A stretch of 34,447 nucleotides of DNA, from the NCBI GenBank assembly GCA_026387455.1, contig JAPLLR010000066.1, forward strand, positions 1 through 34,447, read 5' to 3'. Within the stretch, counting starts at the first letter, position 1, and each line of letters opens with the position of its first letter. Made by a program: the position numbers and the translations under genes. Shown here piece after piece: positions 6,143-30,642 of this stretch. The notes below the pieces were generated by a model. That model had not been told where the DNA came from. It saw nothing but the letters and a program-made list of their open reading frames with translations, and did not search any database. Source of the DNA: Candidatus Omnitrophota bacterium. GTDB lineage: Bacteria > Omnitrophota > Gorgyraeia > Gygaellales > Profunditerraquicolaceae.

Positions 6143-8161
6143 CTACTTCTTATTCACAATAAACACAATTAAACTACTCAACTTAAGCAAAACTATCACC
6201 ATACAAGTATTAAATAAGCCCAATACCGGCAGCAACACAATTCCGCCTAATATCCCCGCTACCCACCCGCCGATCAAATCCGCCCCATACAATGCTCCCG
6301 CAGCTTCCCCTGCCCCTATCCTTTCTTTCATATAAATCTTCCCGGCTAACGGAAACTGCGCACCTAGCAGCAATCCCGGAACCAGAAATATCCACAAATA
6401 TGCTCCTGTAGCGCTAATTATCCAGGGCAGAATCAAGGAGAACGCAATTATCACTACCTCGCTTATGGCAAATGCCCGCCCGTCATTCTTGAAGCTATCC
6501 ATCCAGCGCGTCATCAGCACACTTCCCAAAGCAGCCCCAGCCATAAATATGCTGATCAACAACCCTATCTTATAATACAGATATCCGTAAAACACTTGAA
6601 AGCTGAATATCAAAAGCATATTTGCCAACATCCCAAAGAAACCAGTAGTGGCGATAGAATAAACTACGCTTAAGCGCGGCTGATTGAATCTCCTGATAAT
6701 CAATAAAATGGCCGTTGTCAAAGTCAATACTAATACGGCTATCCCAGCTAAGTTAAGCTTCTTCGCCGCAGCAAAAACCCGGCTGCCAAAAGGAGAGAAT
6801 TGCTTGGTCCATAAGGCTAGAGTTTCTAAAACCGCAATAGGCCGCATATCCCGGTTTACTTCTTTAGTCGCACCAACCGAAGCCTGCTGAAACCACTCTA
6901 CCCAGTGCTTGTCTAACCTATAATCCAAATATCCCGGCACAAGTATCCCGGGGTCGAGCTTACGCTCATTTAACCTTTGAGTGATTAAAACAGGGGTAAC
7001 ATCCATTATGCCTTCTGTGTCTGAGGCGAGCATTATATTATAATCACCGGGGATAATGCGCACATAGCTGTAAACTGCTTTAAGGCCGTTTATCACCGAA
7101 GCGTTTACGTCTTTTAACTCCTGGCTCAAGTAACTCAATGAACCCGGCAGATAAATCGCCAACACTCCACCCGGATTAAGCCGCTTTTTGCTTAACGCGA
7201 AAAACTCCTGGCTAAAGAGGCGATTTACTGACAGATCCTGCGGCTTTGACAATCCAATCAAGATGACATCATACTTATTAGGCGTAGTCCTGACAAAAAA
7301 CCTGCCATCGACATTATAAACACTGACCCTCTTATCCGTCAGCTCGCGCTCAGTTAAAGGCGTCGGATATTTCCTGACCATATTAATAAGTAATGGATCT
7401 AGCTCGGCATAATCAACATTCTCTACCGGCTGACGCAAAACCTCATTCAGCAGACCACCCGCTCCGCCGCCCACCACTAAAATGCTCTTTGGCTCTTTGT
7501 GGAATAATAGCGGCAAATTGCCAAATTCCTGAACAAAAGTCATGTCAGGATAAGGCGTGGTAATCGTGGGAATCCCGTTATAAAAAAAGGTGTATTGCTC
7601 CGCTTTCTTAGCTACCGCAACATTCCCGTAAACCGAGTTACGACTTTCAATAATTCCCGGAGCCTTCCACTGAGAAAAACCCACAAAAGGTATCAATAAA
7701 TAAGTAAAGATAACCCCGCCGGCAATAGTCCCCGCGGTTTCCCAAGCATAAACCTTACCCAATGACTGTCTTAACTTACAAGCAACGCTGAATAGCGCGC
7801 CATGAAAAAAGCTAACCGGAAAATTAACCAGAAAAGTTACGATAAAGATAGTATCAAGACCTACAGACTGTCCAAAGGGGATTCCCAGGTAGCTCCTAAA
7901 AGTGCGGGCAAAATATACACAGACAGGCAAGAAAATACAAAATAAAACTATTAAGATTACAAAAATAACGTACCTATGCCTGGCGCGCTCAATCACTTTC
8001 CCAGCCGCAAAAACGCCTATGGCCTCAGCAAGGATCCAGTTGGCAAGGATTATCCCTACAGTCAGTTCATTGCCGGCAAAACCGACCAATAGCTCGCGCA
8101 AAAGCAACACCTGCGCAATAATGCCGCTTAAACCGATAATTAAAATAACAATTATAAACAT
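6143..8161 (-). CDS. Multipass membrane protein with spermidine-synthase-like domain
   Basis: 672 residues in three parts. An N-terminal block has about four membrane helices to residue 165. A cytosolic Rossmann domain resembling spermidine synthase spans about 170-400. A C-terminal block of about six helices begins near residue 465. The nucleotide-binding motif ILVVGGGAGGLLNEVLR and the acidic strand VDYAELDPLLI are present. The segment that in true aminopropyltransferases holds the catalytic Asp (a D-x-x-D-P-type motif) reads DVILIGLSKPQD, so polyamine synthesis is doubtful. Such membrane-anchored homologues are widespread in metagenomic lineages and uncharacterised. It is the last gene of the polysaccharide block, 42 nt after the Wzy_C-family gene. 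Confidence 0.75.
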   Translation of the reverse strand: MFIIVILIIGLSGIIAQVLLLRELLVGFAGNELTVGIILANWILAEAIGVFAAGKVIERARHRYVIFVILIVLFCIFLPVCVYFARTFRSYLGIPFGQSVGLDTIFIVTFLVNFPVSFFHGALFSVACKLRQSLGKVYAWETAGTIAGGVIFTYLLIPFVGFSQWKAPGIIESRNSVYGNVAVAKKAEQYTFFYNGIPTITTPYPDMTFVQEFGNLPLLFHKEPKSILVVGGGAGGLLNEVLRQPVENVDYAELDPLLINMVRKYPTPLTERELTDKRVSVYNVDGRFFVRTTPNKYDVILIGLSKPQDLSVNRLFSQEFFALSKKRLNPGGVLAIYLPGSLSYLSQELKDVNASVINGLKAVYSYVRIIPGDYNIMLASDTEGIMDVTPVLITQRLNERKLDPGILVPGYLDYRLDKHWVEWFQQASVGATKEVNRDMRPIAVLETLALWTKQFSPFGSRVFAAAKKLNLAGIAVLVLTLTTAILLIIRRFNQPRLSVVYSIATTGFFGMLANMLLIFSFQVFYGYLYYKIGLLISIFMAGAALGSVLMTRWMDSFKNDGRAFAISEVVIIAFSLILPWIISATGAYLWIFLVPGLLLGAQFPLAGKIYMKERIGAGEAAGALYGADLIGGWVAGILGGIVLLPVLGLFNTCMVIVLLKLSSLIVFIVNKK

Positions 8162-11377: not shown

Positions 11378-11938
11378 TTAATGGCTTATTCCTTCTTTCT
11401 TTATGACCTTACATACCGTAATCAACAAGATCTTGAAATCTAAGAGCAGGCTTCTATTTTTCAAATAGTATTCATCAAACGCGACTTTGGCCGGGATAGA
11501 CAGGTTATCCCTTCCGTTGATCTGGGCCCAGCCGGTGACTCCCGGAATAAACATATGCACATTCTTTTTCGTCCTTGATTCTATCAGATCGTACTGATTA
11601 AAAAGCGCTGGCCGTGGGCCAACAAAACTCATTTCTCCCCTTAGAATATTAAAAAGCTGTGGAATTTCATCAATACTGTATCTACGCAAAAATGCTCCGA
11701 TTGGAGTTAAATAAATTTCAGGATCTTTCATTAAGTGAGTGGCCACTTGCGGAGTATTTAATCTCATAGTTCTGAATTTAGACATTCTAAAAATGGCGTT
11801 ATTTGCACCAACACGATCTGTCCAGAATATAATCGGCCCTCTCGAAGACAATTTAATTACTATGACAACAATCGAGATGGGAACAATCAAAACCACCAAC
11901 AGGACCGAAGAAAGAATCAAATCAAACAACCTTTTCAC
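11378..11938 (-). CDS. PglC-type monotopic phosphoglycosyl transferase (priming sugar transferase)
   Basis: Transfers a sugar 1-phosphate from a UDP-sugar to undecaprenyl phosphate, starting glycan assembly. At 186 residues it is a minimal bacterial sugar transferase like PglC. One re-entrant hydrophobic segment (about residues 3-28) is followed by [13 protein letters not shown], then KFRTM. The catalytic Asp-Glu pair is in [10 protein letters not shown], followed by GPRP and [11 protein letters not shown]. The start is GTG at 11938, with AAGGGA about 8 nt upstream. Its first 17 nt overlap the 3' end of a truncated SDR gene. The context (WbpM-type dehydratase next) suggests a QuiNAc-, FucNAc- or bacillosamine-type primer sugar; that is inference. 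Confidence 0.92.
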
Positions 11939-12638
11939 GCTTTGTATCCCTTATAGAAACGAACGTTATTGGATGAATAAGACATAATTCAATAATATCG
12001 CAAAGATTCCCAGTATAAATAAAACTTCGCTTATTGGATACCGAGCCAAGGGGCAAAGGGATGCCCTTGTCTACCAATCGGATTAACTGCAAAAAATTGC
12101 CTTTGACCCCCGGGCCATATACTAGCGGCAGACGTAAGATTATCTCCTGCATATCAGAATTACGGCAAATGGAAATTACTTTTTCCTCAGCTTCAAGCTT
12201 AGAGATTGCATAATAATCTTTAGGTTTAGAATGACTTTCTTCCGTAAAGACACCACTATCACCATTTACTTTAACTGTGCTGATAAAAATAAACCGCTTT
12301 ACCCCCGACTCTACTGCCTGTTCTGCCAATCGCTTAGTACCCAAAACATTGATCCGATGATATACAGAAGCCGGATCACTCTCTTGTTCATCCATTACAT
12401 GGGCCCGGCCGGCTAAATGAATAACCCAATCCACATCTTGAAGAGCCTTAATCCAATCAGTTGACTCATTTATATCTCCAACTTGAATATATTCATCGGC
12501 ACTATAGACTTCACGCACATTATTACGCACAGCCCCTCTGACAATGTAGCCTTTTTCTTTTAAGAAAACATATAGGTTACGACCAATAAATCCGTTTGCA
12601 CCTGTTATTAAAATATGTGGTTTAATAATTGCGGTCAT
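11922..12638 (-). CDS. Extended SDR (WbpV-like sugar reductase/epimerase), C-terminally truncated
   Basis: NAD(P)-dependent nucleotide-sugar oxidoreductase of the group found beside WbpM and priming transferases. There it reduces the 4-keto intermediate to UDP-QuiNAc or UDP-FucNAc. The cofactor motif ITGANGFIGRNLY, the VIHLAGRAHVM segment, STVKVNGDSG and the catalytic YxxxK (YYAISK) are intact. The protein stops at 238 residues, while relatives run to about 310-320. After SFIYTGNLCDIIELCLIHP the sequence ends in [10 protein letters not shown], whose last codons are an out-of-frame reading of the sugar transferase start. About 80 C-terminal residues, part of the substrate-binding lobe, are thus missing. 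Deletion up to the next gene is the simplest reading; activity is doubtful. Confidence 0.75.
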   Translation of the reverse strand: MTAIIKPHILITGANGFIGRNLYVFLKEKGYIVRGAVRNNVREVYSADEYIQVGDINESTDWIKALQDVDWVIHLAGRAHVMDEQESDPASVYHRINVLGTKRLAEQAVESGVKRFIFISTVKVNGDSGVFTEESHSKPKDYYAISKLEAEEKVISICRNSDMQEIILRLPLVYGPGVKGNFLQLIRLVDKGIPLPLGSVSNKRSFIYTGNLCDIIELCLIHPITFVSIRDTKREKVV

Positions 12639-14874: not shown

Positions 14875-15740
14875 ATTGCCTCCTTTTCAATCTCTTCAGC
14901 CAACTCTCTAATCATAGTATCCCATAACGGAGGAATATAACCCGCTTCAATACGAAATTTTGACGAATCCAAGCTGCGATCACATTTAAATTGATCATCC
15001 GGAATTATTTCAACATTTAAGTCAAACTTTTTCTTAATTGACATCAGCAGATCAAATTTACTAATCGACCCGCTTGAAACATGGTATAGCCCCTTAATAC
15101 TCTTATGATTTAAAATAATATCTTTTAGTATTGCGCTTAATGTGCCCGTGGTAAATCCTGAAAATATTGCTTTTGTGTAACCTTTAATAGTTTTGCCTCT
15201 CTGACTAAAAAACCATTCTAAAAGTCCGTGTATAGTATTTAATTCTCTTCCAATAATGGAAGTCCGCAAGGTTAAAACATTGCCCTCGGTTACCTCTCCT
15301 AGCAATTTCGTCCGACCATATAAATCTAAAGGATCAGGATTATCATCTTCAGTATAACCGCCTTTCTTACCAGAAAAAACACAATCCGTACTAATATGAA
15401 TCAGCCGTGAATTAATTTTACTGCATAATAATGCTAACTTATGCGGAAAAAGAGAGTTTATCTCTATGCTCTTTACTGCATCGTGGGCTTCGCTTATCTG
15501 TTTCACAATGCCTATACAGTTTAAGATCACATCAGGTCTAAACTCTCCGATTTCTTCCTCTAAATTAGGGAAATCAAGAACATTTACATTACAGATAGTT
15601 TTACTTTTATCAAAGATTCCGAATTCCTCTACCTCGGAGAAACTGCCCCTTATCGTTACATAAACATCAAAGCTGTCTTTTAAAACCTGCCAGGCTTTAT
15701 GCCCTAGCATGCCTTTCCCGCCTAAGATTAAGACACGCAC
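14871..15740 (-). CDS. RmlD-like nucleotide-sugar 4-reductase (WbvR-like)
   Basis: SDR of 289 residues related to dTDP-4-dehydrorhamnose reductase: ILGGKGMLGHKAWQVL, DVILNCIGIVKQ, HISTDCVFSGKKGGY and the catalytic YGRTK. It is shorter than CapF/WbjC reductases, which carry an extra C-terminal cupin. It therefore better matches the reductase known from UDP-L-RhaNAc/UDP-L-QuiNAc synthesis (WbvR of Vibrio cholerae O37). Placed with FnlA-like and 2-epimerase genes, it would reduce the 4-keto-6-deoxy-L-sugar. The GTG start at 15740 has AAGGAG about 9 nt upstream. It overlaps the broken glycosyltransferase by 13 nt and the dehydratase by 4 nt. QuiNAc versus FucNAc remains inference. Confidence 0.82.
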   Translation of the reverse strand: MRVLILGGKGMLGHKAWQVLKDSFDVYVTIRGSFSEVEEFGIFDKSKTICNVNVLDFPNLEEEIGEFRPDVILNCIGIVKQISEAHDAVKSIEINSLFPHKLALLCSKINSRLIHISTDCVFSGKKGGYTEDDNPDPLDLYGRTKLLGEVTEGNVLTLRTSIIGRELNTIHGLLEWFFSQRGKTIKGYTKAIFSGFTTGTLSAILKDIILNHKSIKGLYHVSSGSISKFDLLMSIKKKFDLNVEIIPDDQFKCDRSLDSSKFRIEAGYIPPLWDTMIRELAEEIEKEAI

Positions 15741-16917
15741 TCTGCTTCTCTCCTTTTTAGATCATTCATGATTCTGTCTAATTGATTTAATAGCATCTTT
15801 TGCTCGAAGTTTTTTTCAAAATACTGCTTGGCGTTTGATCCCATAGCCTGACGTTCTTTTTCCCCCGTATGATACATCTTCAACACCAGTTTTGCAAGAG
15901 CATCCGGATCTTCTGATCGGCAAGAAAAACCTGACCTAGATTCTTCGATTATCCTCGCCCCTTCACCCTCTAGAGCAGCTATAACAGGCCTAGCGCATGC
16001 TAAATAAGGCTGGAGCTTCGAAGGAATGGTAAGCTTAAATATTTCGCTCTTGCACAAGGTGACAAGCAAGGCATTAGCCAGCGAAAAATAAGCTGGCATT
16101 CTTTCCGGAGACTGCCTCTTAAAGAGCAAGAAAGTGCGATCCAAATTGCGCGTTTTCACCGCCTCTTCAACCCAGCTTCGCATCCTGCCTTCACCAATAA
16201 TAACCCAATATATATCATGATAGTCCTTAAGTATTTCCGCCGCAGAAATAATGGTCTTAAAGTCCTGCGCCGCACCGATATTACCCGCAAACATGACTAT
16301 AAAACCTCGCGGCATAGCCCTGTATTCTTCCGCGTCATCATCCAGTTTTACGGGCTGGTAAAATTCCTCAGCGCTATTTGGAAAATAAATAATGCGGCTA
16401 ACCCCAACCCCGAAACTTTGAACAGAGGGAATGAAGGCTCTTGATTGCACCAATATTAAATCGCACTGGTGGTAAATAAAACGCGTTAGTTGTTTGGTAA
16501 GCTTCAGAAACAGTGGAAATTTGACCGCACCGGTGGCTGACAGGCTTTCCGGCCAGATATCCTGCACCCAAAATAAGATCTTTGCAGATTTAATGCTCTT
16601 TAAAACAATCGCAGGCAAGCCAACAGTAATTGGCGAAGGCTCATAAACAAATATTAAATCATATTTGCCTTTGCAAACAAAGCTATTGTACCGCCTTTTC
16701 CCCGGGGCACAAGCGGTACGCGTATAATATGTGCACCCTTATAGTTCTGGCGTAAATTTCTGAATAATCCGTATCCCCCGAAAAAGCTCCCGCACGGATA
16801 ATTAGGAATGCCGGTTAAAACTGCAACCTCATGCCCTTTTTCAATCAATCCGGAAGTTAAATTATTAATAGGAAAGTTTTCCGGCCAGAAATATTGAGTA
16901 ACTATGAGGATTTTCAT
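15728..16917 (-). pseudogene. Broken WbuB-like GT4 glycosyltransferase (frame loss and internal deletion)
   Basis: Two adjoining reading frames encode the two halves of one GT-B enzyme. The 5' part (16654-16917) starts at the ATG overlapping the HisF2 stop and reads MKILIVTQYFWPENFP through VPLVPRGKGG, then stops out of frame. The 3' part picks up in another frame at about 16660 (CKGKYDLIFVYEPSPITVG). It runs through ILFWVQDIWPESLSATGAV, FAGNIGAAQDF and EIFKLTIPSKLQPYLACARP to a stop at 15728. Intact relatives usually have about 20 more residues between the GKGG and KYD segments, so a deletion of 3n+1 nt is more likely than a one-base slip. In homologous clusters this enzyme adds the L-FucNAc or L-QuiNAc-type residue. 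Pseudogene versus assembly error cannot be settled here. Confidence 0.82.
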
Positions 16918-17699
16918 TTTATTAAACAATAATTCTCTTTAATTAGCGCGTATTTCTCTGCCCTGCTTGGATAATTTATAAGGACTGCTCTGTATACACC
17001 CTTGAATACAAATAGGCTTCCAGCCGCAGCACCTATGGCTCCATATTTACTAATCAAATAACCTATATCGTTAAGCGACCCTGCGCCACCAAGCACTGTT
17101 AACGGTATGCTAATCGAATTCCGAATTCTCTCGACCAAATCAAGATCATACCCCTTCATAAGACCGTCATTATCAATTGAATTTATTACTATTTCGCCTG
17201 CCCCAAGCATCTCCATTTGCAAAGCTGACTCTAATGCACACTTGCCTGTATTCTTACGCCCGCCATGAGTCCACACCTCATACTTGTCATCTAAAAACCG
17301 CTTTTTTACGTCTAACACCACCACCACACTCTGATTTCCTACACACTTAGCTGTTTCCCTGACAAGGCTAGGATTCACAATTGCGGCAGAGCTTATTGCT
17401 ATTTTTTCCACGCCTAACTGAATAATCTTTTTAACCTGTTCACTTGTCGTTACTCCGCCCCCATAACATAGGGGCATCCGACACTCTTCCGCTAAATGGC
17501 CGATCAATTTATAATCAGGTTCTCTCTTTTCAAGAGCAGCGTCGATGTCAAGCACAATAAGCTCATCAACTTCCTTTTCGTTAAATATTCTAACAGCATT
17601 AATAGGGTCACCAATGTACTTAGGATTATTAAAATTTACGGTCTTAACCAGACCCTTACCTTTGATCAGCAAGCAAGGAATTATTCGTGGATATAGCAT
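16914..17699 (-). CDS. HisF2/AglZ-type acetamidino-sugar synthesis protein
   Basis: A (beta-alpha)8 barrel paralogue of the imidazole glycerol phosphate synthase cyclase, used with HisH2 to supply ammonia to a sugar amidotransferase. It has 261 residues: RIIPCLLIKGKGLVKTVNF, GDPINAVRIF, CYGGGVTT, VVVVLDVKKR and LTVLGGAGS. True HisF has an Asp in the N-terminal CLD motif; here it is Leu (CLL), while the second catalytic-position Asp (LDVKKR) remains. That pattern fits the sugar-modifying paralogues rather than histidine synthesis, and no other his genes are present. It begins 2 nt after the HisH2 stop and overlaps the glycosyltransferase start. E. coli O145 WbuZ is a named relative by role. 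Confidence 0.88.
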   Translation of the reverse strand: MLYPRIIPCLLIKGKGLVKTVNFNNPKYIGDPINAVRIFNEKEVDELIVLDIDAALEKREPDYKLIGHLAEECRMPLCYGGGVTTSEQVKKIIQLGVEKIAISSAAIVNPSLVRETAKCVGNQSVVVVLDVKKRFLDDKYEVWTHGGRKNTGKCALESALQMEMLGAGEIVINSIDNDGLMKGYDLDLVERIRNSISIPLTVLGGAGSLNDIGYLISKYGAIGAAAGSLFVFKGVYRAVLINYPSRAEKYALIKENYCLIK

Positions 17700-17701
17700 C
17701 T

Positions 17702-18316
17702 TTATAGTTTTGCGAAGTTTTTAAGGAGCTGGACACCCCATTGATGACTTTTTTCCGGATGGAACTGAACACCAAAAATATTTCCTGAATTCACTACACA
17801 CGTAAACTCTCCACCATAATCAGTTACAGCAATGACATCTTCGCTTTTATGACATTGAAAATAATAGGAGTGCAAAAAATAAAATCGAGCCTCCTGATCA
17901 ATTCCCTCTAACAAACTATCTAATTTTAATCGCTTAAAATTATTCCAACCCATGTGTGGTAAGCATACGGAGCGATCTAAAAATGCTGAATTAAATCTTT
18001 TCACTTCGCCATCTATCCATCCGAGGCCGGGCAAATTTCCTTCCTCGCTAAAGCTGGCAAACATCTGCATCCCCACACAAATACCCAAGATTGGCATATG
18101 ATTATGCAGAACGATTTCATCAAGAGACTTACGCATGCCTGATTTTTCAAGCTTCTCCATCGCATGATCAAAAGAACCGACTCCTGGCAAAATTAGCTTT
18201 TTAACCTTATTTAAATCCCCAGATCCGGATACAATAAGAAAAGGGATTCCTAACTTGCTGTAAATATTAGCAAAAGCTTTAATATTACCTAAGCCATAGT
18301 TGACTATGCCGATCAT
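17702..18316 (-). CDS. HisH2-type glutamine amidotransferase for acetamidino-sugar synthesis
   Basis: Class I glutaminase of 204 residues that releases ammonia from glutamine. It has the oxyanion/glycine region VNYGLGNIKAF and LPGVGSFDHAM, the nucleophile Cys in GICVGMQMF, and the His-Glu pair in FGVQFHPEKSH. All catalytic residues are present. It sits between the amidotransferase gene (4-nt overlap) and HisF2 (2-nt gap). This is the layout of P. aeruginosa and E. coli O-antigen clusters that make acetamidino sugars (WbuY in O145). It is presumably paired with HisF2 for ammonia channelling. Sequence alone would not separate it from histidine HisH; the context does. Confidence 0.9.
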   Translation of the reverse strand: MIGIVNYGLGNIKAFANIYSKLGIPFLIVSGSGDLNKVKKLILPGVGSFDHAMEKLEKSGMRKSLDEIVLHNHMPILGICVGMQMFASFSEEGNLPGLGWIDGEVKRFNSAFLDRSVCLPHMGWNNFKRLKLDSLLEGIDQEARFYFLHSYYFQCHKSEDVIAVTDYGGEFTCVVNSGNIFGVQFHPEKSHQWGVQLLKNFAKL

Positions 18317-19452
18317 CGGATAACTCTTTTTTCCACGCCTAACAATTGTAATACTCGTGTCCCTAAATTTATTAATCCAATATTGTTTTTGTAGTCTCGG
18401 TAAGTTTTGTTCTCTCCCTTAAATAATTCTCTTAGCTCAGGTACTGTTAAATCAAGCTTTTTCGCAACATATTCAAATTCCTGCGAAATTGTTTGTTCGT
18501 CTAGCTCTAACTTAGCTATACGCTTATGCGCTTCTTCACGAGTCATCTGTTTGGTCAAAACCAAACTTGACAAGTAAGTTCTACGTTTGTCATATCCGAA
18601 CTTCGCAGGAAGCCAATACCCTTCATAGAACCTTGTAAAACGGGATTCGTGATGCTTGCTTTCATATCTCTGCCAACCAAAACGATCAACCAACTCTTTT
18701 ATAGCTTGCTCTTTTATATACGGCAGGTAATCTAGGGGCTTCACCACCCTTATACCTTTAATATACCTGTAATATAGTTTATACTTAAAAATGTCCGCAG
18801 TAGGAAATGTCTTTAAGGGCCGCTGCCCAAATCGACGGTGGATATCTCTGACATGACGCATATCCGTTAAATAGTAAGTCCATTCTAATGGTCCCCGTAC
18901 GCATTCAGTCGAATAGTTTGCCCCTGTTACAATGTATTTATAATTATGCTTCGCCGCAAAGTTATAAAGTGCGGAAAATATAGCGAGATCCTGTGGTAAG
19001 TCCTGATACGGCAGCTGAGATTTAAGCATTGCGACTTGCAGATCTTTCATCTCAAGCCAATCAACGACCTCTGTATGTAAATCAAGCTTGAGTCCATCTA
19101 TTATCCTATTAACATTATTTACGCTCACATCCGTATTCCATCCCGTATCAACATGAAACATCAGGGGCCTTAAACCAAATTTTTCCTTAGCAAGATACGC
19201 TACGTATGAACTGTCCACCCCTCCGCTTATGCCCATTAAACAATCATGGTCGCGGTCTCTTCCATCCTTCTTTATCTTATCAATTATAGGGGCAAGCATC
19301 TTTTCTCCCTGCTCATTTGGGTGCCAATTAGGCAGGATGCTTGCATAGTAATTACGGCAGTAGTCGCACCAGCCCCGCTCATCAAAGGTAATATCAGGAT
19401 CTGTCGTGTCCATTATACAATTAGAACATATTTGATACTTTGCTTGACTCAT
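18313..19452 (-). CDS. N-acetyl sugar amidotransferase (WbpG/PseA/LfnA/WbuX family)
   Basis: ATP-dependent enzyme that converts an N-acetyl group on a nucleotide sugar to an acetamidino group with ammonia from HisH2/HisF2. The N-terminal zinc site is CSNCIMDTTDP plus CDYC, and the PP-loop GISGGVDSSYVAYLA lies at about residues 75-90. GANYSTECVRGP and LDYLPYIKEQAI follow. The start was placed at the ATG at 19452 because GGAGG stands 7 nt upstream; an in-frame upstream codon at 19485 lacks such support. The resulting 379 residues fit the family. The known L-FucNAc-modifying members (LfnA, WbuX) also sit with HisH/HisF-like genes and FnlABC. Here the substrate is inferred to be the L-sugar made by the neighbouring genes. 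Confidence 0.92.
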   Translation of the reverse strand: MSQAKYQICSNCIMDTTDPDITFDERGWCDYCRNYYASILPNWHPNEQGEKMLAPIIDKIKKDGRDRDHDCLMGISGGVDSSYVAYLAKEKFGLRPLMFHVDTGWNTDVSVNNVNRIIDGLKLDLHTEVVDWLEMKDLQVAMLKSQLPYQDLPQDLAIFSALYNFAAKHNYKYIVTGANYSTECVRGPLEWTYYLTDMRHVRDIHRRFGQRPLKTFPTADIFKYKLYYRYIKGIRVVKPLDYLPYIKEQAIKELVDRFGWQRYESKHHESRFTRFYEGYWLPAKFGYDKRRTYLSSLVLTKQMTREEAHKRIAKLELDEQTISQEFEYVAKKLDLTVPELRELFKGENKTYRDYKNNIGLINLGTRVLQLLGVEKRVIR

Positions 19453-19515
19453 GTTTACACCTCCAGACCTAGATTTAAATACCATTAACCAAAAAATGAT
19501 TCTCTAAAAATATTC

Positions 19516-20726: not shown

Positions 20727-21671
20727 TTAACACTTAATATTTTCATGATTAAACAGACCGGATGTTGATGCAACCCGCATGATTGCTCCTTTTAGCCCAA
20801 GTTTAAAAGTGAAACCGGTTTTTAAAAGTTTTTCGGCTGAATAACGTACATCACCCATATTGCCTCCTCCCCGTATAATTTTTCGCAAAAGGTAAGGCAC
20901 AAAGAGAGGCAGATGCGGAACCGGACGCAAATTATGGACTGATTTTCCCTCTCGGTAAGCCTTATAAAGCTCCCATAATCCAGAAAGAGTATTTAATGGC
21001 TCATTGTCACACGAAACAATATAACGCTGCGGAGCCTCCAGGGGATAAGAAATAAAATATACAGCGGCATGTGCCACATCTTCAGCATGCACGATATGCG
21101 CGCATTCACCGCCTTTTACAAAAACTTTACATAAGTCTATGAATGAACTCCGTTTCGGAAGTGCTAGGATACCCGGCTTTCTTTCATCAATAACATCGGT
21201 TGGCCTCAAGATGACCACTTTACAGCCTTTAATACCGCGCGCAACCAACTGCTCGGCAGCCCATTTACTTTTTTCATAAACATTTTGCGGGTCACATGGG
21301 GTCGACTCATCAGCCAATTTTAAATCCGTATTCCCAATGACTCCTACACTACTTAAATAACAAAAATATTTTATGCCGCAAAGTTCTGCATATTTCAATA
21401 TCCTTTCGGTCCCGGTGACATTTACTGCCCACATTCTTGATTCATCTTTTAATTCCGCGGCACAATGGAAAAGCATCTGAGAATCATGCATAAAATTCTT
21501 TAATACAGCATCGTCATTAATATCACCGTTAAAAACCTCAACGCCCGAAGTAACAGGATAGGCCTTCCGAGTTAAAACCCTGACCTTGTAGCCCTGAGAT
21601 AACAGAATAGCCGTAATTTTACTTCCGATATTGCCGGAAGAGCCGGTAACGCATGCGATCAATTTATTCAA
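20727..21671 (-). CDS. NAD-dependent epimerase/dehydratase (extended SDR)
   Basis: Rossmann-fold nucleotide-sugar-type SDR of 314 residues with the cofactor motif VTGSSGNIGSKITAILL, AAELKDESRMWAVNVTGTER, LSSVGVIGN and the catalytic YEKSK. The start was set at the TTG at 21671: GGGG lies 5 nt upstream, and its first 8 nt overlap the ancestral stop of the preceding polymerase gene (21664-21666). Longer starts at 21695 or 21719 would add a hydrophobic peptide that is really read from the polymerase 3' end. The C-terminal substrate lobe is complete (HIVHAEDVAHAAVYF, RYIVSCDNEPL). Which sugar it acts on cannot be told; 4-epimerase and 4-reductase are both possible. Confidence 0.85.
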   Translation of the reverse strand: MNKLIACVTGSSGNIGSKITAILLSQGYKVRVLTRKAYPVTSGVEVFNGDINDDAVLKNFMHDSQMLFHCAAELKDESRMWAVNVTGTERILKYAELCGIKYFCYLSSVGVIGNTDLKLADESTPCDPQNVYEKSKWAAEQLVARGIKGCKVVILRPTDVIDERKPGILALPKRSSFIDLCKVFVKGGECAHIVHAEDVAHAAVYFISYPLEAPQRYIVSCDNEPLNTLSGLWELYKAYREGKSVHNLRPVPHLPLFVPYLLRKIIRGGGNMGDVRYSAEKLLKTGFTFKLGLKGAIMRVASTSGLFNHENIKC

Positions 21672-22897
21672 TATTTCCCCTTTTTTTAAAATCATAAATA
21701 GTAGAAAAAACAATGGCAACCGTAATAAAATAAAACGGGCTCATTAAGATTCCATACGTTAAATTTGAAATAAAAAGCGCTAGCCATGCCTGCGAAATAC
21801 GTAAAATATAAACCGATTAGAAAATATTTTTAGCTATCACGTTGATTATTTGAAGCTCGCGTAGCATCAAAAGTATTAATCCAATAAACCCTAGAAAAGT
21901 AAGCCAATATCCCAGCGCAAAGGAAGATACCGTATAACCGCGCCCTTGCTCATCTTTACCCGGAATCCGAATACCTATTCCTAATAATGGATGTGCCTTT
22001 ACATCAGCAAGGTTTGAATTAAATAGTTCGATTCTACCACCGTACGGATTTTTTACGGCATCCCGAACACCTATCGCATATCGCAAACTAATATTATCCG
22101 CATAATACTTAGCTACAAAATAACGCCCAAAAATTGCAATAAAAACAGATACAGTAAATAATAAAAACATGGTTAAATGAAAGGATCTTCTATTTTTGCT
22201 TGTTTTTAACCAGAATAACTCTCCGAGCAAGCCAACCATAACGATACAAAGATATGCGGTATTAGAAAAAGTGGCTATGCATCCGATAAAGCATGCAAAC
22301 TTAGCGATTTTCCATAACTTTTGTTTTGTTTGCAAAAAAATAATCTCCGCAAAAAAAGCTGATGCTAACAAAAATCCGGCCGCATTTGCAGGTTCCATCC
22401 AAAATCCATAAAGCTGAAAAAATGATAATTTCATATGATTAAAATATACCATCCCCAACCCCTGCCCAAGTAGACCAAACGGCCCACGATATTTACCGCC
22501 TGAAAAGGTAGGGTTGCGAAAACTCTCAACTGGCCCGTAAAAAGATGCTACAGTTAAGATAATATATTGGACTACTGTAAAAATAGCAATACCAATGAAA
22601 AACTTCATTATTGTTTCTTTAGCATATTCATTTTTAAACATGTATAAACAAATAAAATAGCAAAAGAAAAATAAAGGAACGTATTTTGACCACTGGACAA
22701 AACATTCATTTAATTCCGGAGAAAAAAGGCTTGAGATTAGTCCCCAAATCATAAATAAAAGAAAAAATAGAACATAAGGTCTAAAGACAATTTAGTAACC
22801 GGGTTAATAGGAAACGTGCCAAACGCTACTCATTAAAGCAAAAATAGGAAATCTAAAAATAGCAAATAATATAGAGATACCTAAGATTTTTTACCAT
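21664..22897 (-). pseudogene. Wzy-like O-antigen polymerase interrupted by in-frame stops
   Basis: The longest open segment (21817-22752) codes for 311 residues of a multipass membrane protein with Wzy-like features (AHPLLGIGIRIPG in the periplasmic loop). Reading on in the same frame past TAA at 21817-21819 gives 50 more residues typical of the final helices (ISQAWLALFISNLTYGIL, FYFITVAIVFSTIYDFKKR), ending at TAA 21664-21666. Upstream, the frame continues into RPYVLFFLLF without a start codon. It then meets TAA at 22792-22794 and 22804-22806, with another hydrophobic stretch before them (ILGISILFAIFRFPIFALM). That stretch would join the ATG at 22897 if one A of an A6 run were removed. Several lesions in one gene argue for decay rather than a single sequencing error. 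Confidence 0.8.
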
Positions 22898-22932: not shown

Positions 22933-23700
22933 CTATTTGAGCCGGACATTTTCAAGTACAGCGTACCAAACAATCCCCACCCATTCTTGCAAAAAAATGG
23001 TGCTTGCTCCCAGAGAATCCGGATTAGGAATAAAATCCTGCCAACCTACTGAATAGCTTGATAACGGAACAGGATGGATTAATATTGCGGAAAAATATCG
23101 GCTAAACTCACGCCGTGCTCTCCGCATATGCGAATTGGATGTCACCAAACCAATCTGAGTCTTAGATGTAATCCCGGGTAGCTCTAGAGCCTTGATTGGA
23201 TGCTCTCGGGTATTTACCGAACTGCCCTCTAACACCAAATGAGATTTAGGAACACCATGACACATGGCTGTTTCAGCCATCAATTGTACCAAGCGATCAT
23301 TAGGTCGGTTTTTAATCTCCCCTAAAGCGCCGGAAAAAACCAATTTAGCTTGCGGATATTCTCGCCACCACGCAATGGCGGCTAAAACACGACGGCTACT
23401 TTCCTCAACCAGCACATCCTGATCTAAGGAGGCCCCCGGCAAATAGCCACCGCCTAATACAAAAATGTAAGTTGGCGCATTCCCCTCTTGGTTATTTACC
23501 GCATGCGAAAGGGATCGCTCGAGGCTGCGCGAGACCGATGGAGTGGATAATGCGCCTAAACCAACTAGAGATATCATTAGTAACATCCAGATCAACTTGC
23601 GGGCGCCAGCCATCCTAGTCCAGTAGCGATAGCGTAAAGTAACCAAACAACTCAGTTGCAGTAAAAGAAACCACAGCAATGGGTCAACCAGTTGTTTCAA
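22933..23700 (-). CDS. ElyC/YdcF-like envelope protein (DUF218)
   Basis: 255-residue protein with two N-terminal membrane helices (about residues 6-24 and 36-54) and a periplasmic DUF218 domain: YIFVLGGGYLPG, LVFSGALGEIKNRPNDR, SSVNTREHPIKA, VTSNSHMRRARREF. Length and layout match E. coli ElyC, which is linked to envelope polysaccharide or lipid-carrier homeostasis; the biochemical activity of the family is not settled. It starts with TTG at 23700, with AAAGG about 9 nt upstream. The gene is isolated between two AT-rich non-coding stretches, one holding the decayed 5' end of the polymerase gene. Inserted or transferred origin is possible but not shown. Confidence 0.85.
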   Translation of the reverse strand: MKQLVDPLLWFLLLQLSCLVTLRYRYWTRMAGARKLIWMLLMISLVGLGALSTPSVSRSLERSLSHAVNNQEGNAPTYIFVLGGGYLPGASLDQDVLVEESSRRVLAAIAWWREYPQAKLVFSGALGEIKNRPNDRLVQLMAETAMCHGVPKSHLVLEGSSVNTREHPIKALELPGITSKTQIGLVTSNSHMRRARREFSRYFSAILIHPVPLSSYSVGWQDFIPNPDSLGASTIFLQEWVGIVWYAVLENVRLK

Positions 23701-27033: not shown

Positions 27034-28852
27034 TTTGCCACCTTATCTCATAAATATATGTTTTAGCCAAACTAAGTTCCCTATGAAAAACAACGACGAT
27101 AGCCGATGAACCCGCACCGTATTCAGATGAAACCCATCCATCATCAATGTTAGTATTGCTGCCACGAATTAAATTACATTTATACTCTAAAAGATCCGCA
27201 ACTTTGAGTCTGATCGGTGCGGTTTGAGCATGATAAATACCAATCACCCCGTCTTCCTCTTTAATCTCCAGACCAGGACTGATCTGAAAACGGCTTTCTA
27301 AAATATTATTGCCGACACTTTTCAGGTCGTCCGCAATGACCATCTTATCAGAATATACGCTGAATTTCCTAGACCATTCCACCGGTACAGGTAATCTCTT
27401 AAATCCTTCGGACATGATTTCAAGACTTAAATATTCATCCGATCTTAAAACACTGAAACGCGTATCTACAGGATGATACGCATTGAACAAATTTAATTTA
27501 TGATTCTCGCAAAACGGACCCAAAGAATCAAGCAAAACCGAATTATGGGCTTTAGCGCTTTTGGCAAATGCGTGTTTTGTATCATAAGAAAATTGTCCCG
27601 GATCCGCGAATATCTGAATGCCCTTATAAAACAAGACAAAACTACCCAAATCATAATGGCCATGGTTCAAATAAGCCGCATTTTCCCTGGCTATATGCCA
27701 GAAAATCACCACATTGCTCGAATCAAAGCGAACAAAGTCGCCTTTATTTTCAGGAGCTCCGCTCTGCTTTTTTAGGGAACCACCCATCTCCGTCCAATTC
27801 AACCATTTCTTAAGTTCTTCCCATCCTGCCTTTGCGTCCGGAGATAGCCATTCGGGTGAAAAATCCGGTGAGATATCCCCGAACATCGGCATGCGCCAGC
27901 ATTTTTTCCTGTCATAAACAGAAAAGAAATCGCAGCAATCCCTCATCAGCCGGGCCCACTTTTCCATAAAACCGGAAAAAGGTGTGTCTTTTACAAAGCA
28001 GGAAAGATAATAAACCTGCTCAAAACGTTGGCACAATAAATACTGGTAATGCGATGAACCATCCCTCATCATGCCGTCAGGATAAAAAACTTTTTCCGTC
28101 CAAGCGCTAAAAAGTTCCTTACTTTTTCTTAAGGCGATATTGTGATTTAAAACAACTCCCCCTATATATAGCCCTCGGGCATCGTTTAGGATATGGTTAT
28201 TTGTAAATATGCCGTTCAACTCAAGATTATTGAGAAGGTAATTTACCTGCTTAGCCATCGACTCCGCGATAATACCGCGCGCATCATCCGAAATAGCAGA
28301 TAACTTTTTAGCAATAAGTAGGATAAACGGCCAATTTGCCAGCCTTTCCGCGACAGAATAGCTTTCCCACGCAGGTCCACCTTGGGGTTCTTGCATCTGA
28401 CGGATCCAGTATAAGATGCTATTTAAAGCAAATTCAGCGGTTTCTGGCGAAGGATATTGCAATAATAGAGAAAGGGTCCATCCGAAACGATTTAAAGCGA
28501 AAATATCCTCTCTGTCGGCATACGGATAAAACCAATCTATCTTAGCTCCCATCCTAATATTCTGCGTAGCTAATTTTATTTCAAGAGGATCCGGAAGAGT
28601 CCCGCCATATGGCTGAAAATGAATATCCGGAAGCTCCTCCAGTAATAAGGCTGACTTTTCACTTCTCCCAATCAGGTTAGCAATTTTCATTCTAATAATG
28701 AAAACCCATCGCATGCATACTTTAGAGATCCTCACTGAAAAATAAGCAACTGTAAACTTTAAACTTTTATAAAGAAATAAAAACAGCTCAAACGGATGCC
28801 TTAACAGGAAAATGCGTAGATTTCTCTCTTCTGAATTAGCGTAAACACTCAT
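27020..28852 (-). CDS. Heparinase II/III-family (alginate lyase-like) protein
   Basis: 610-residue protein with an N-terminal alpha/alpha-toroid region and a C-terminal beta-sandwich domain of the heparinase II/III type. Seen: GILTN-type region NGIFTNNHILNDARGLYIGG, then MRDGSSHYQYLL, then the hallmark LNHGHYDLGSFVLFYKG at about residue 397, IFADPGQFSYD and AHNSVLLD. No clear signal peptide is present. The ATG at 28852 was chosen over an in-frame codon at 28948 because it makes an ATGA overlap with the asnB stop, like other junctions here. Homologues are common beside asparagine-synthase genes in exopolysaccharide clusters. Whether they cleave uronic-acid glycans or act in synthesis is not established. 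Confidence 0.88.
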   Translation of the reverse strand: MSVYANSEERNLRIFLLRHPFELFLFLYKSLKFTVAYFSVRISKVCMRWVFIIRMKIANLIGRSEKSALLLEELPDIHFQPYGGTLPDPLEIKLATQNIRMGAKIDWFYPYADREDIFALNRFGWTLSLLLQYPSPETAEFALNSILYWIRQMQEPQGGPAWESYSVAERLANWPFILLIAKKLSAISDDARGIIAESMAKQVNYLLNNLELNGIFTNNHILNDARGLYIGGVVLNHNIALRKSKELFSAWTEKVFYPDGMMRDGSSHYQYLLCQRFEQVYYLSCFVKDTPFSGFMEKWARLMRDCCDFFSVYDRKKCWRMPMFGDISPDFSPEWLSPDAKAGWEELKKWLNWTEMGGSLKKQSGAPENKGDFVRFDSSNVVIFWHIARENAAYLNHGHYDLGSFVLFYKGIQIFADPGQFSYDTKHAFAKSAKAHNSVLLDSLGPFCENHKLNLFNAYHPVDTRFSVLRSDEYLSLEIMSEGFKRLPVPVEWSRKFSVYSDKMVIADDLKSVGNNILESRFQISPGLEIKEEDGVIGIYHAQTAPIRLKVADLLEYKCNLIRGSNTNIDDGWVSSEYGAGSSAIVVVFHRELSLAKTYIYEIRWQNVSS

Positions 28853-30642
28853 GCAAAATCTTCCAAAGTTTTTCCCTGCGGACACCCGGATGAACTTATA
28901 ATTATCCGGTACCACAACTCTAAACAGGCGATCTTCCAAAGGTCCCACGGGGAGATGCTTTTAAAAGAAATATTTTCCAGCCTAAGCAGTTGCGACTTAT
29001 TTAGTAAGCCATTCTCCACGATCCGCCGCAAATTAATCCTGGTTTTCTCATCGATCCAATCTTCAAGCGGAGCGCCAAACCCTTCCTTCTTGCGGTATAA
29101 CAGCTCATAAGGCAAATAAGGTTCCAGCATTTTCTTGAAAATATACTTTGCTTCTCCGTTCTTTATCTTCCATGAAGCGGGTAAATGCGCGGCGACCTCT
29201 ACAAAACGATGGTCCAATAACGGCACTCTGCCCTCAAGAGATACAGCCATCGCGATCTTATCTAAAAGGAAAAGAACATTTGACTGCAAGTAACCGTCTA
29301 TATCCTGCGCCAAAACCCTGTTAATACGTCCCCCGAAGGCCTTGCCTGGCTGATACGCCATATCGCGTAATGACCTATCGACATAGCCGGGGAATATCTT
29401 TTTCCAATGATCTAAATTATATGATTTACCTAAAAGTTTCCTGATGGTTCCGCCTGCCCCCGACCTATCAACCGCGGACAATATAGATCTTCTGGACAAG
29501 AAACTATTCCGATGATGGGGGTATCCAGCAAAAAGTTCGTCTCCGCCACTTCCGTTCAGGCAAACCACAGCCTCTTTCCTTGCCATTTCCGAAATGATAT
29601 AAGTCGGGATGCTCGCCAAGTCGCCGAAAGGCTCCTCTAAATGCCAGATCAATTTCGGTATCAAACGGGAAAAATCATTCCTGCTGACCGCGACTTCGGA
29701 ATGAATTGTCCCGTATCTTTGCGCGACGGCCGCAGCGTATCGGCGTTCATCGATTTTTTTAGTCGCTTCTGGGAAATGAACGTGGAATGTCCGCAAAGGC
29801 ATGGACGATGCCATCGCGGCAAATACCGCTACCGCGCTTGAATCTATTCCGCCGCTTAAGAAAACGCAGATAGGCACATCCGCCCTGATCTGGAGTCTAT
29901 TAGCGTCTTTCAAAAGAAAGGTCAACCGTTCAATTGCCTCTGCCTCTGAACGCGGCAAAGGCTCAACCGGAAGATCTCCTAATCTCCAATATGAATCTTC
30001 TGTCACGGTATTAGAATCATCGATACACAAATAATGCCCCGGTTCCAACTTCCGTATCTTTTTAAACGGGGAAAGGGGAACCGGAATATACATTTGGTCC
30101 AGAAAACAACCTAACCCTTCCCAGTCAATCTCTTTCGAGACTAGATTAGTCGATAACAGCGATCTGAGCTCTGAAGCAAACAGAAAACAATTCCCAAGCG
30201 CCGAATAATAAAGCGGCTTAATCCCCAATCGGTCACGCGCGATATATAAATGTTTCTTCTTTGCATCAAATAACGCCAGGCCAAACATCCCGTTCAACCG
30301 CTTAAGGCAATTGATCCCGTATTCTTCATACAAGTGCACGATACATTCGACATCGCTATTCGTGTAGAATCTGTGGCCTTTTTGCTTAAGCTCAATTGTC
30401 AATTCCTGATAATTATAGATCTCCCCGTTACAGACTACCCGGATGCTTTTATCCTCATTAGTGATCGGCTGATCTCCGGTAACCAGATCAATAACGCTCA
30501 GACGGCGTATACCAAGCCCAAATCCCCCTTCGGTATAAAACCCTTCGGAATCGGGACCGCGGTGGAGCTGCTGATCCGCCATTATGCGCAAAAGCCTTGC
30601 GCCATTATCATTTATATTGCAATATCCGAAAATCCCGCACAT
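28849..30642 (-). CDS. asnB: Asparagine synthase (glutamine-hydrolysing)-type amidotransferase
   Basis: Two-domain enzyme of 597 residues. The N-terminal Ntn-type glutaminase has Cys2 as nucleophile (MCGIFGYCN), HRGPDSEGF, RRLSVIDL, CNGEIYNYQEL and ARDRLGIKPLYY. The C-terminal synthetase has the PP-loop VFLSGGIDSSAVAVFAA at about residue 260 and NGSGGDELFAGYPHH. All key residues look intact. It may make asparagine, but in polysaccharide loci AsnB-like proteins often amidate a uronic acid on the glycan. The overlap with the heparinase-like gene makes the second role attractive. It follows the methyltransferase gene after 15 nt. Confidence 0.93.
   Translation of the reverse strand: MCGIFGYCNINDNGARLLRIMADQQLHRGPDSEGFYTEGGFGLGIRRLSVIDLVTGDQPITNEDKSIRVVCNGEIYNYQELTIELKQKGHRFYTNSDVECIVHLYEEYGINCLKRLNGMFGLALFDAKKKHLYIARDRLGIKPLYYSALGNCFLFASELRSLLSTNLVSKEIDWEGLGCFLDQMYIPVPLSPFKKIRKLEPGHYLCIDDSNTVTEDSYWRLGDLPVEPLPRSEAEAIERLTFLLKDANRLQIRADVPICVFLSGGIDSSAVAVFAAMASSMPLRTFHVHFPEATKKIDERRYAAAVAQRYGTIHSEVAVSRNDFSRLIPKLIWHLEEPFGDLASIPTYIISEMARKEAVVCLNGSGGDELFAGYPHHRNSFLSRRSILSAVDRSGAGGTIRKLLGKSYNLDHWKKIFPGYVDRSLRDMAYQPGKAFGGRINRVLAQDIDGYLQSNVLFLLDKIAMAVSLEGRVPLLDHRFVEVAAHLPASWKIKNGEAKYIFKKMLEPYLPYELLYRKKEGFGAPLEDWIDEKTRINLRRIVENGLLNKSQLLRLENISFKSISPWDLWKIACLELWYRIIISSSGCPQGKTLEDFA

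Follow-up and report, generated by a model that had tools for sequence, protein, structure and literature searches.

A surface-polysaccharide operon on the minus strand of the window (contig C67 positions 1-34447, the whole stretch of DNA that was analyzed, 34,447 nt) contains a wzy-like region that is crossed by several TAA codons in one frame. This raises the question of whether the region is a decayed O-antigen polymerase gene, an intact gene distorted by the assembly, or a gene that is still translated in shortened or read-through form. The window belongs to a MAG of 1.68 Mb in 72 contigs (90.7% complete). Judging by homology, we consider it probable that an O-unit locus (FucNAc/acetamidino-sugar-like) carries here a wzy-type polymerase gene that has turned into a pseudogene.

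The operon and its syntenic relative

The operon comprises a DUF218/ElyC-like gene, the wzy-like region and genes for an epimerase, a GT4 glycosyltransferase, WbuX, HisH and WbuZ/HisF2; further genes encode a WcaI-family transferase, an RmlD-like protein, an FnlA/PseB-like protein, WecB, another epimerase and a sugar-phosphate transferase (polyprenyl type). With these WbuX, HisH, WbuZ/HisF2, WecB, FnlA/PseB-like, RmlD-like, glycosyltransferase and sugar-phosphate transferase genes nearby, the wzy-like region lies in an O-unit cluster. The wbuX, hisH, hisF, wecB, one GT4 and sugar transferase genes align with relatives over their full or nearly full length. Elsewhere in the window, a membrane-bound spermine-synthase-like protein (6143-8161, minus strand) seemingly lacks part of the membrane section before the synthase domain, which may reflect an in-frame deletion; and the asparagine-synthase-like and heparinase-like open frames overlap by about 100 nt (28849-28948, minus strand), where the listed GTG start of the heparinase-like frame may be too early.

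Searching with the neighboring WbuX led to L047, an uncultured delta-proteobacterium MAG (CAISJV010000066.1), in which wzy is one uninterrupted 475-codon frame (P0001, 475 aa). The order wzy–epimerase–GT4–wbuX–hisH–hisF is common to both loci, with identities of 37, 55, 67, 84, 70 and 67%, respectively. WbuX (18313-19485, minus strand, against L047 10001-11170) is thus 84% identical in a syntenic context and wzy just 37%, which suggests that the locus was transferred between distant lineages with fast divergence of wzy. The sequence-only reading had proposed to look for an intact allele in close relatives; an uninterrupted wzy does exist in L047, but the search of 58 near genomes gave no relative. 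With the wzy core as query, none was found in these genomes, in a 384-genome sample of its own phylum or in the genome collection; a wzy profile including P0001 found none among 108 genomes of the family; and the phylum and order samples of the L047 genome, viral contigs, plasmids and PDB sequences gave none except L047. The wzy-like region and its neighbors are laid out as follows:

20727-21671, minus strand: NAD-dependent epimerase/dehydratase gene, the next gene, intact (PF01370, E=2e-26; 55% identical to its syntenic counterpart in L047)
21664-21816, minus strand: orphaned 3' end of 50 codons, closed by the original stop TAA 21666-21664 (44% identity to P0001 428-472, E=2e-12)
21817-21819, minus strand: in-frame TAA (nonsense) inside the conserved C-terminal region, flanked on either side by sequence homologous to P0001, collinear and ungapped
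21820-22791, minus strand: 324-codon open core of the wzy-like pseudogene, with its first ATG at 22752 (Wzy_C PF04932, E=5.6e-7; 37% identity to P0001 over 340 columns, E=4e-55)
22792-22897, minus strand: 5' region, remnant or replaced, with TAA 22804 and 22792 in the core frame (no P0001 homology; codon usage slightly favors another frame at 22829-22755; ATG 22897 out of frame)
22933-23700, minus strand: DUF218/ElyC-like gene, upstream, intact (PF02698, E=3e-21)

Stop codons and the 3' end

In the core frame, TAA codons stand at 22893-22891, 22806-22804, 22794-22792, 21819-21817 and 21666-21664 on the minus strand. The sequence-only reading, which took 21664-22897 as a polymerase gene with conserved sequence before, between and after its stops, had correctly placed the TAAs at 22804, 22792 and 21817 and the terminal one at 21664 in a single minus-strand frame. 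Its gene start does not hold: the span is 1234 nt (remainder 1), so that ATG 22897 does not share the frame of the TAA codons, and TAA 22893-22891 lies beside this ATG in the stop frame. A change of the genetic code is ruled out; TAA ends 13 of the 28 window genes and is therefore an ordinary stop here.

The claim that conserved sequence continues past TAA 21817 is borne out. The first 45 of the 50 residues beyond it match P0001 428-472 without a gap, and this stretch reaches an ungapped score of 117, compared with at most 48 in 300 shuffles and at most 39 in 188 membrane-protein fragments of the window. A frame-aware alignment to P0001 likewise runs ungapped from residues before TAA 21817 to near the gene end. 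Because homology is ungapped and in frame on both sides, TAA 21819-21817 is, as far as the alignment tells, an in-frame nonsense codon, or an error imitating one, inside a conserved gene. About 50 residues are lost through it, including a strong hydrophobic segment. That the 3' extension originally belonged to the gene had been argued from operon spacing; it is the homology to P0001 that upholds it. The 8-nt overlap of the terminal TAA 21666-21664 with the TTG of the next gene (21671-21669), which AGGGG precedes, is real, but as evidence it is weak, since wzy and the epimerase gene do not overlap in L047.

The open core and its family

At the local stop density, 324 open codons (22791-21820) would arise by chance with a probability of about 2e-8. 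The open frame alone scores 29.9 bits against Wzy_C, and 31.9 with its frame neighbors, around the curated cut-off of 31.7; P0001, the intact relative, has no Pfam match at all. The core keeps the most conserved stretches, G-F-W-x-E-P-x-N-A-A and RIPG. A simple hydropathy scan finds six strong hydrophobic segments in the core, one in the cut-off end and nine in P0001. In Pseudomonas aeruginosa, Wzy is a polytopic inner-membrane protein with 14 TM helices and two periplasmic RX10G motifs (PMC12004945). The RX10G pattern occurs at core residues 92 and 102 but only once in P0001; the AlphaFold model of P0001 (pLDDT 37) is too low in confidence for use. Family and context together indicate that the product likely polymerized the O-unit that this operon makes; it is the context that speaks for a polymerase and not a ligase.

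The 5' region

Homology to P0001 starts at about 22776 in the alignment, or at about 22797, with low posterior, in the profile, so that TAA 22792 falls on the margin of the matching stretch and TAA 22804 outside it. Neither the 28 codons before 22804 in the core frame nor the alternative frame 22829-22752 is similar to P0001, and anchored alignments with 0-3 frame changes score close to the limit that shuffles reach (p about 0.04-0.1). The earlier claim that conserved family sequence precedes and separates the two 5' TAAs finds no footing here: before the first TAA, the stop frame has a mean hydropathy of 1.43 and another frame one of 1.52, and with two frames equally hydrophobic, a family-like look is no evidence in this region. 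Codon usage over 22829-22755 mildly prefers another frame (6.1 against 1.4 bits) in a test whose accuracy for membrane segments of 25 codons is just 80%; hidden-Markov frame decoding called too many gene overlaps for use. That the two 5' TAAs are nonsense mutations within family sequence is thus not supported: homology ends there, codon usage leans slightly to another frame and a valid start is lacking.

In P0001, 86 residues precede the matching Met, and the window has space for about 48 codons after ATG 22897. No start with a Shine-Dalgarno sequence was found before the 324-codon core, and ATG 22752 has none either. The 5' end may have been frameshifted, replaced or truncated; this part is unreadable because just one Wzy relative was found, at about 37-39% identity.

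Other damaged genes of the operon

The sequence-only reading had linked the polymerase lesions to a broken transferase, and such a gene is indeed present in the same operon, together with a shortened epimerase gene:

15728-16929, minus strand: broken WcaI-family glycosyltransferase gene, in two frames separated by the loss of a short stretch (halves match PRK10307 1-77 and 123-406 of 411)
11922-12638, minus strand: epimerase gene without its C-terminal part, adjacent to where the sugar-phosphate transferase gene begins (homology lasts to about residue 229 of 337 in L050; same picture with L047 and L048)

Both halves of the transferase match one profile, and tblastn with L052 and L054 proteins also finds them in two frames; by its appearance, the gene was split by an out-of-frame deletion. 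The epimerase frame ends about 100 residues before the end of its relatives, probably through a deletion that reaches the leader of the sugar transferase gene.

Decay, error or residual function

The earlier view of a damaged Wzy-type gene was right, as the frame is disrupted, homology continues past TAA 21817 and the gene is intact in L047. A nonsense codon near the 3' end cuts off a conserved C-terminal membrane segment, and the core has no in-frame start with a Shine-Dalgarno sequence ahead of it. The 5' end was presumably lost through a frameshift, a truncation or recombination; the gene would then yield no functional Wzy, and selection on polymerization of this O-unit may have lapsed, alongside the broken glycosyltransferase and the truncated epimerase. 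With no Shine-Dalgarno start before its 324-codon core, the gene has most likely become a pseudogene recently, and the still open core suggests recent loss. A long intact core with lesions at the two ends alone is slightly odd for random decay and counts against this reading.

The gene could instead be intact in living cells, with the stops being sequencing or assembly errors in the MAG contig, which we regard as unlikely. The fragmentation into 72 contigs and the several damaged genes on one contig would fit such errors; however, two T7 tracts within the core are undisturbed, and the transferase and epimerase genes have lost stretches of DNA, unlike a base-calling error. In addition, a split-gene screen of about 295 kb of other contigs of the same MAG gave some candidates but verified no split gene, a result that speaks against poor assembly: of four pairs checked by family, three had halves of different families and one had a short second half without a family. 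Small lesions escape this screen and most of the weak candidates went unchecked, so that it gives support and not proof.

Residual function is harder still to reconcile with these data. The 324 open codons and the kept G-F-W-x-E-P-x-N-A-A and RIPG stretches would suit a functional shortened Wzy of 311-324 aa, but it would have neither the N-terminal membrane part (86 P0001 residues) nor the roughly 50 C-terminal residues, and its first start, ATG 22752, has no Shine-Dalgarno sequence, making it very improbable. Slightly less credible again is that UAA 21817 is read through or recoded to give low-level Wzy with its C-terminus. The frame is open and conserved for 50 codons past this UAA, but a recent nonsense codon would look identical, TAA is a common terminator in the window, the missing 5' start would be left uncured, and L047 has no stop at the corresponding site. 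Regulated read-through to the conserved C-terminus, with O-antigen polymerization switched by translation termination, is the least probable reading of all.

Significance and comparison with known systems

Known wzy mutants carry single units or no long chains (PMC12004945, PMC5992289). Polymerase loss would have the same outcome here, unless another Wzy_C protein substitutes; the genome has four other intact Wzy_C genes, which may make the loss tolerable. On the pseudogene reading, this is an ordinary decayed gene: losses of this kind are common in bacterial surface-sugar loci, and the mechanism is not new. It would add, from an uncultured lineage, one more case of O-antigen polymerization lost through local decay of a gene. 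It also carries a caution: hydrophobic AT-rich sequence should not be taken for family sequence, and the 3' claim alone survived the homology test.

The gene resembles the Wzy/WaaL superfamily (PF04932, Wzy_C; O-antigen polymerases of the Wzx/Wzy pathway) in its profile match around the cut-off, its hydrophobic, seemingly polytopic core and its position in an O-unit cluster; it differs in being interrupted and in having a closest relative without a Pfam match. With the L047 wzy it shares gene order, 37-39% identity in the core and 44% in the orphaned C-terminus, whereas that gene is uninterrupted, follows another upstream gene (L047 5014-6297, not DUF218/ElyC-like) and does not overlap the epimerase gene. 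In P. aeruginosa PA1RG, a single-base wzy mutation confers phage resistance with no growth defect, and wzy loss alters phage adsorption and surface properties (PMC5992289). In both cases a wzy lesion is expected to abolish long chains; our locus, unlike PA1RG, carries further damage.
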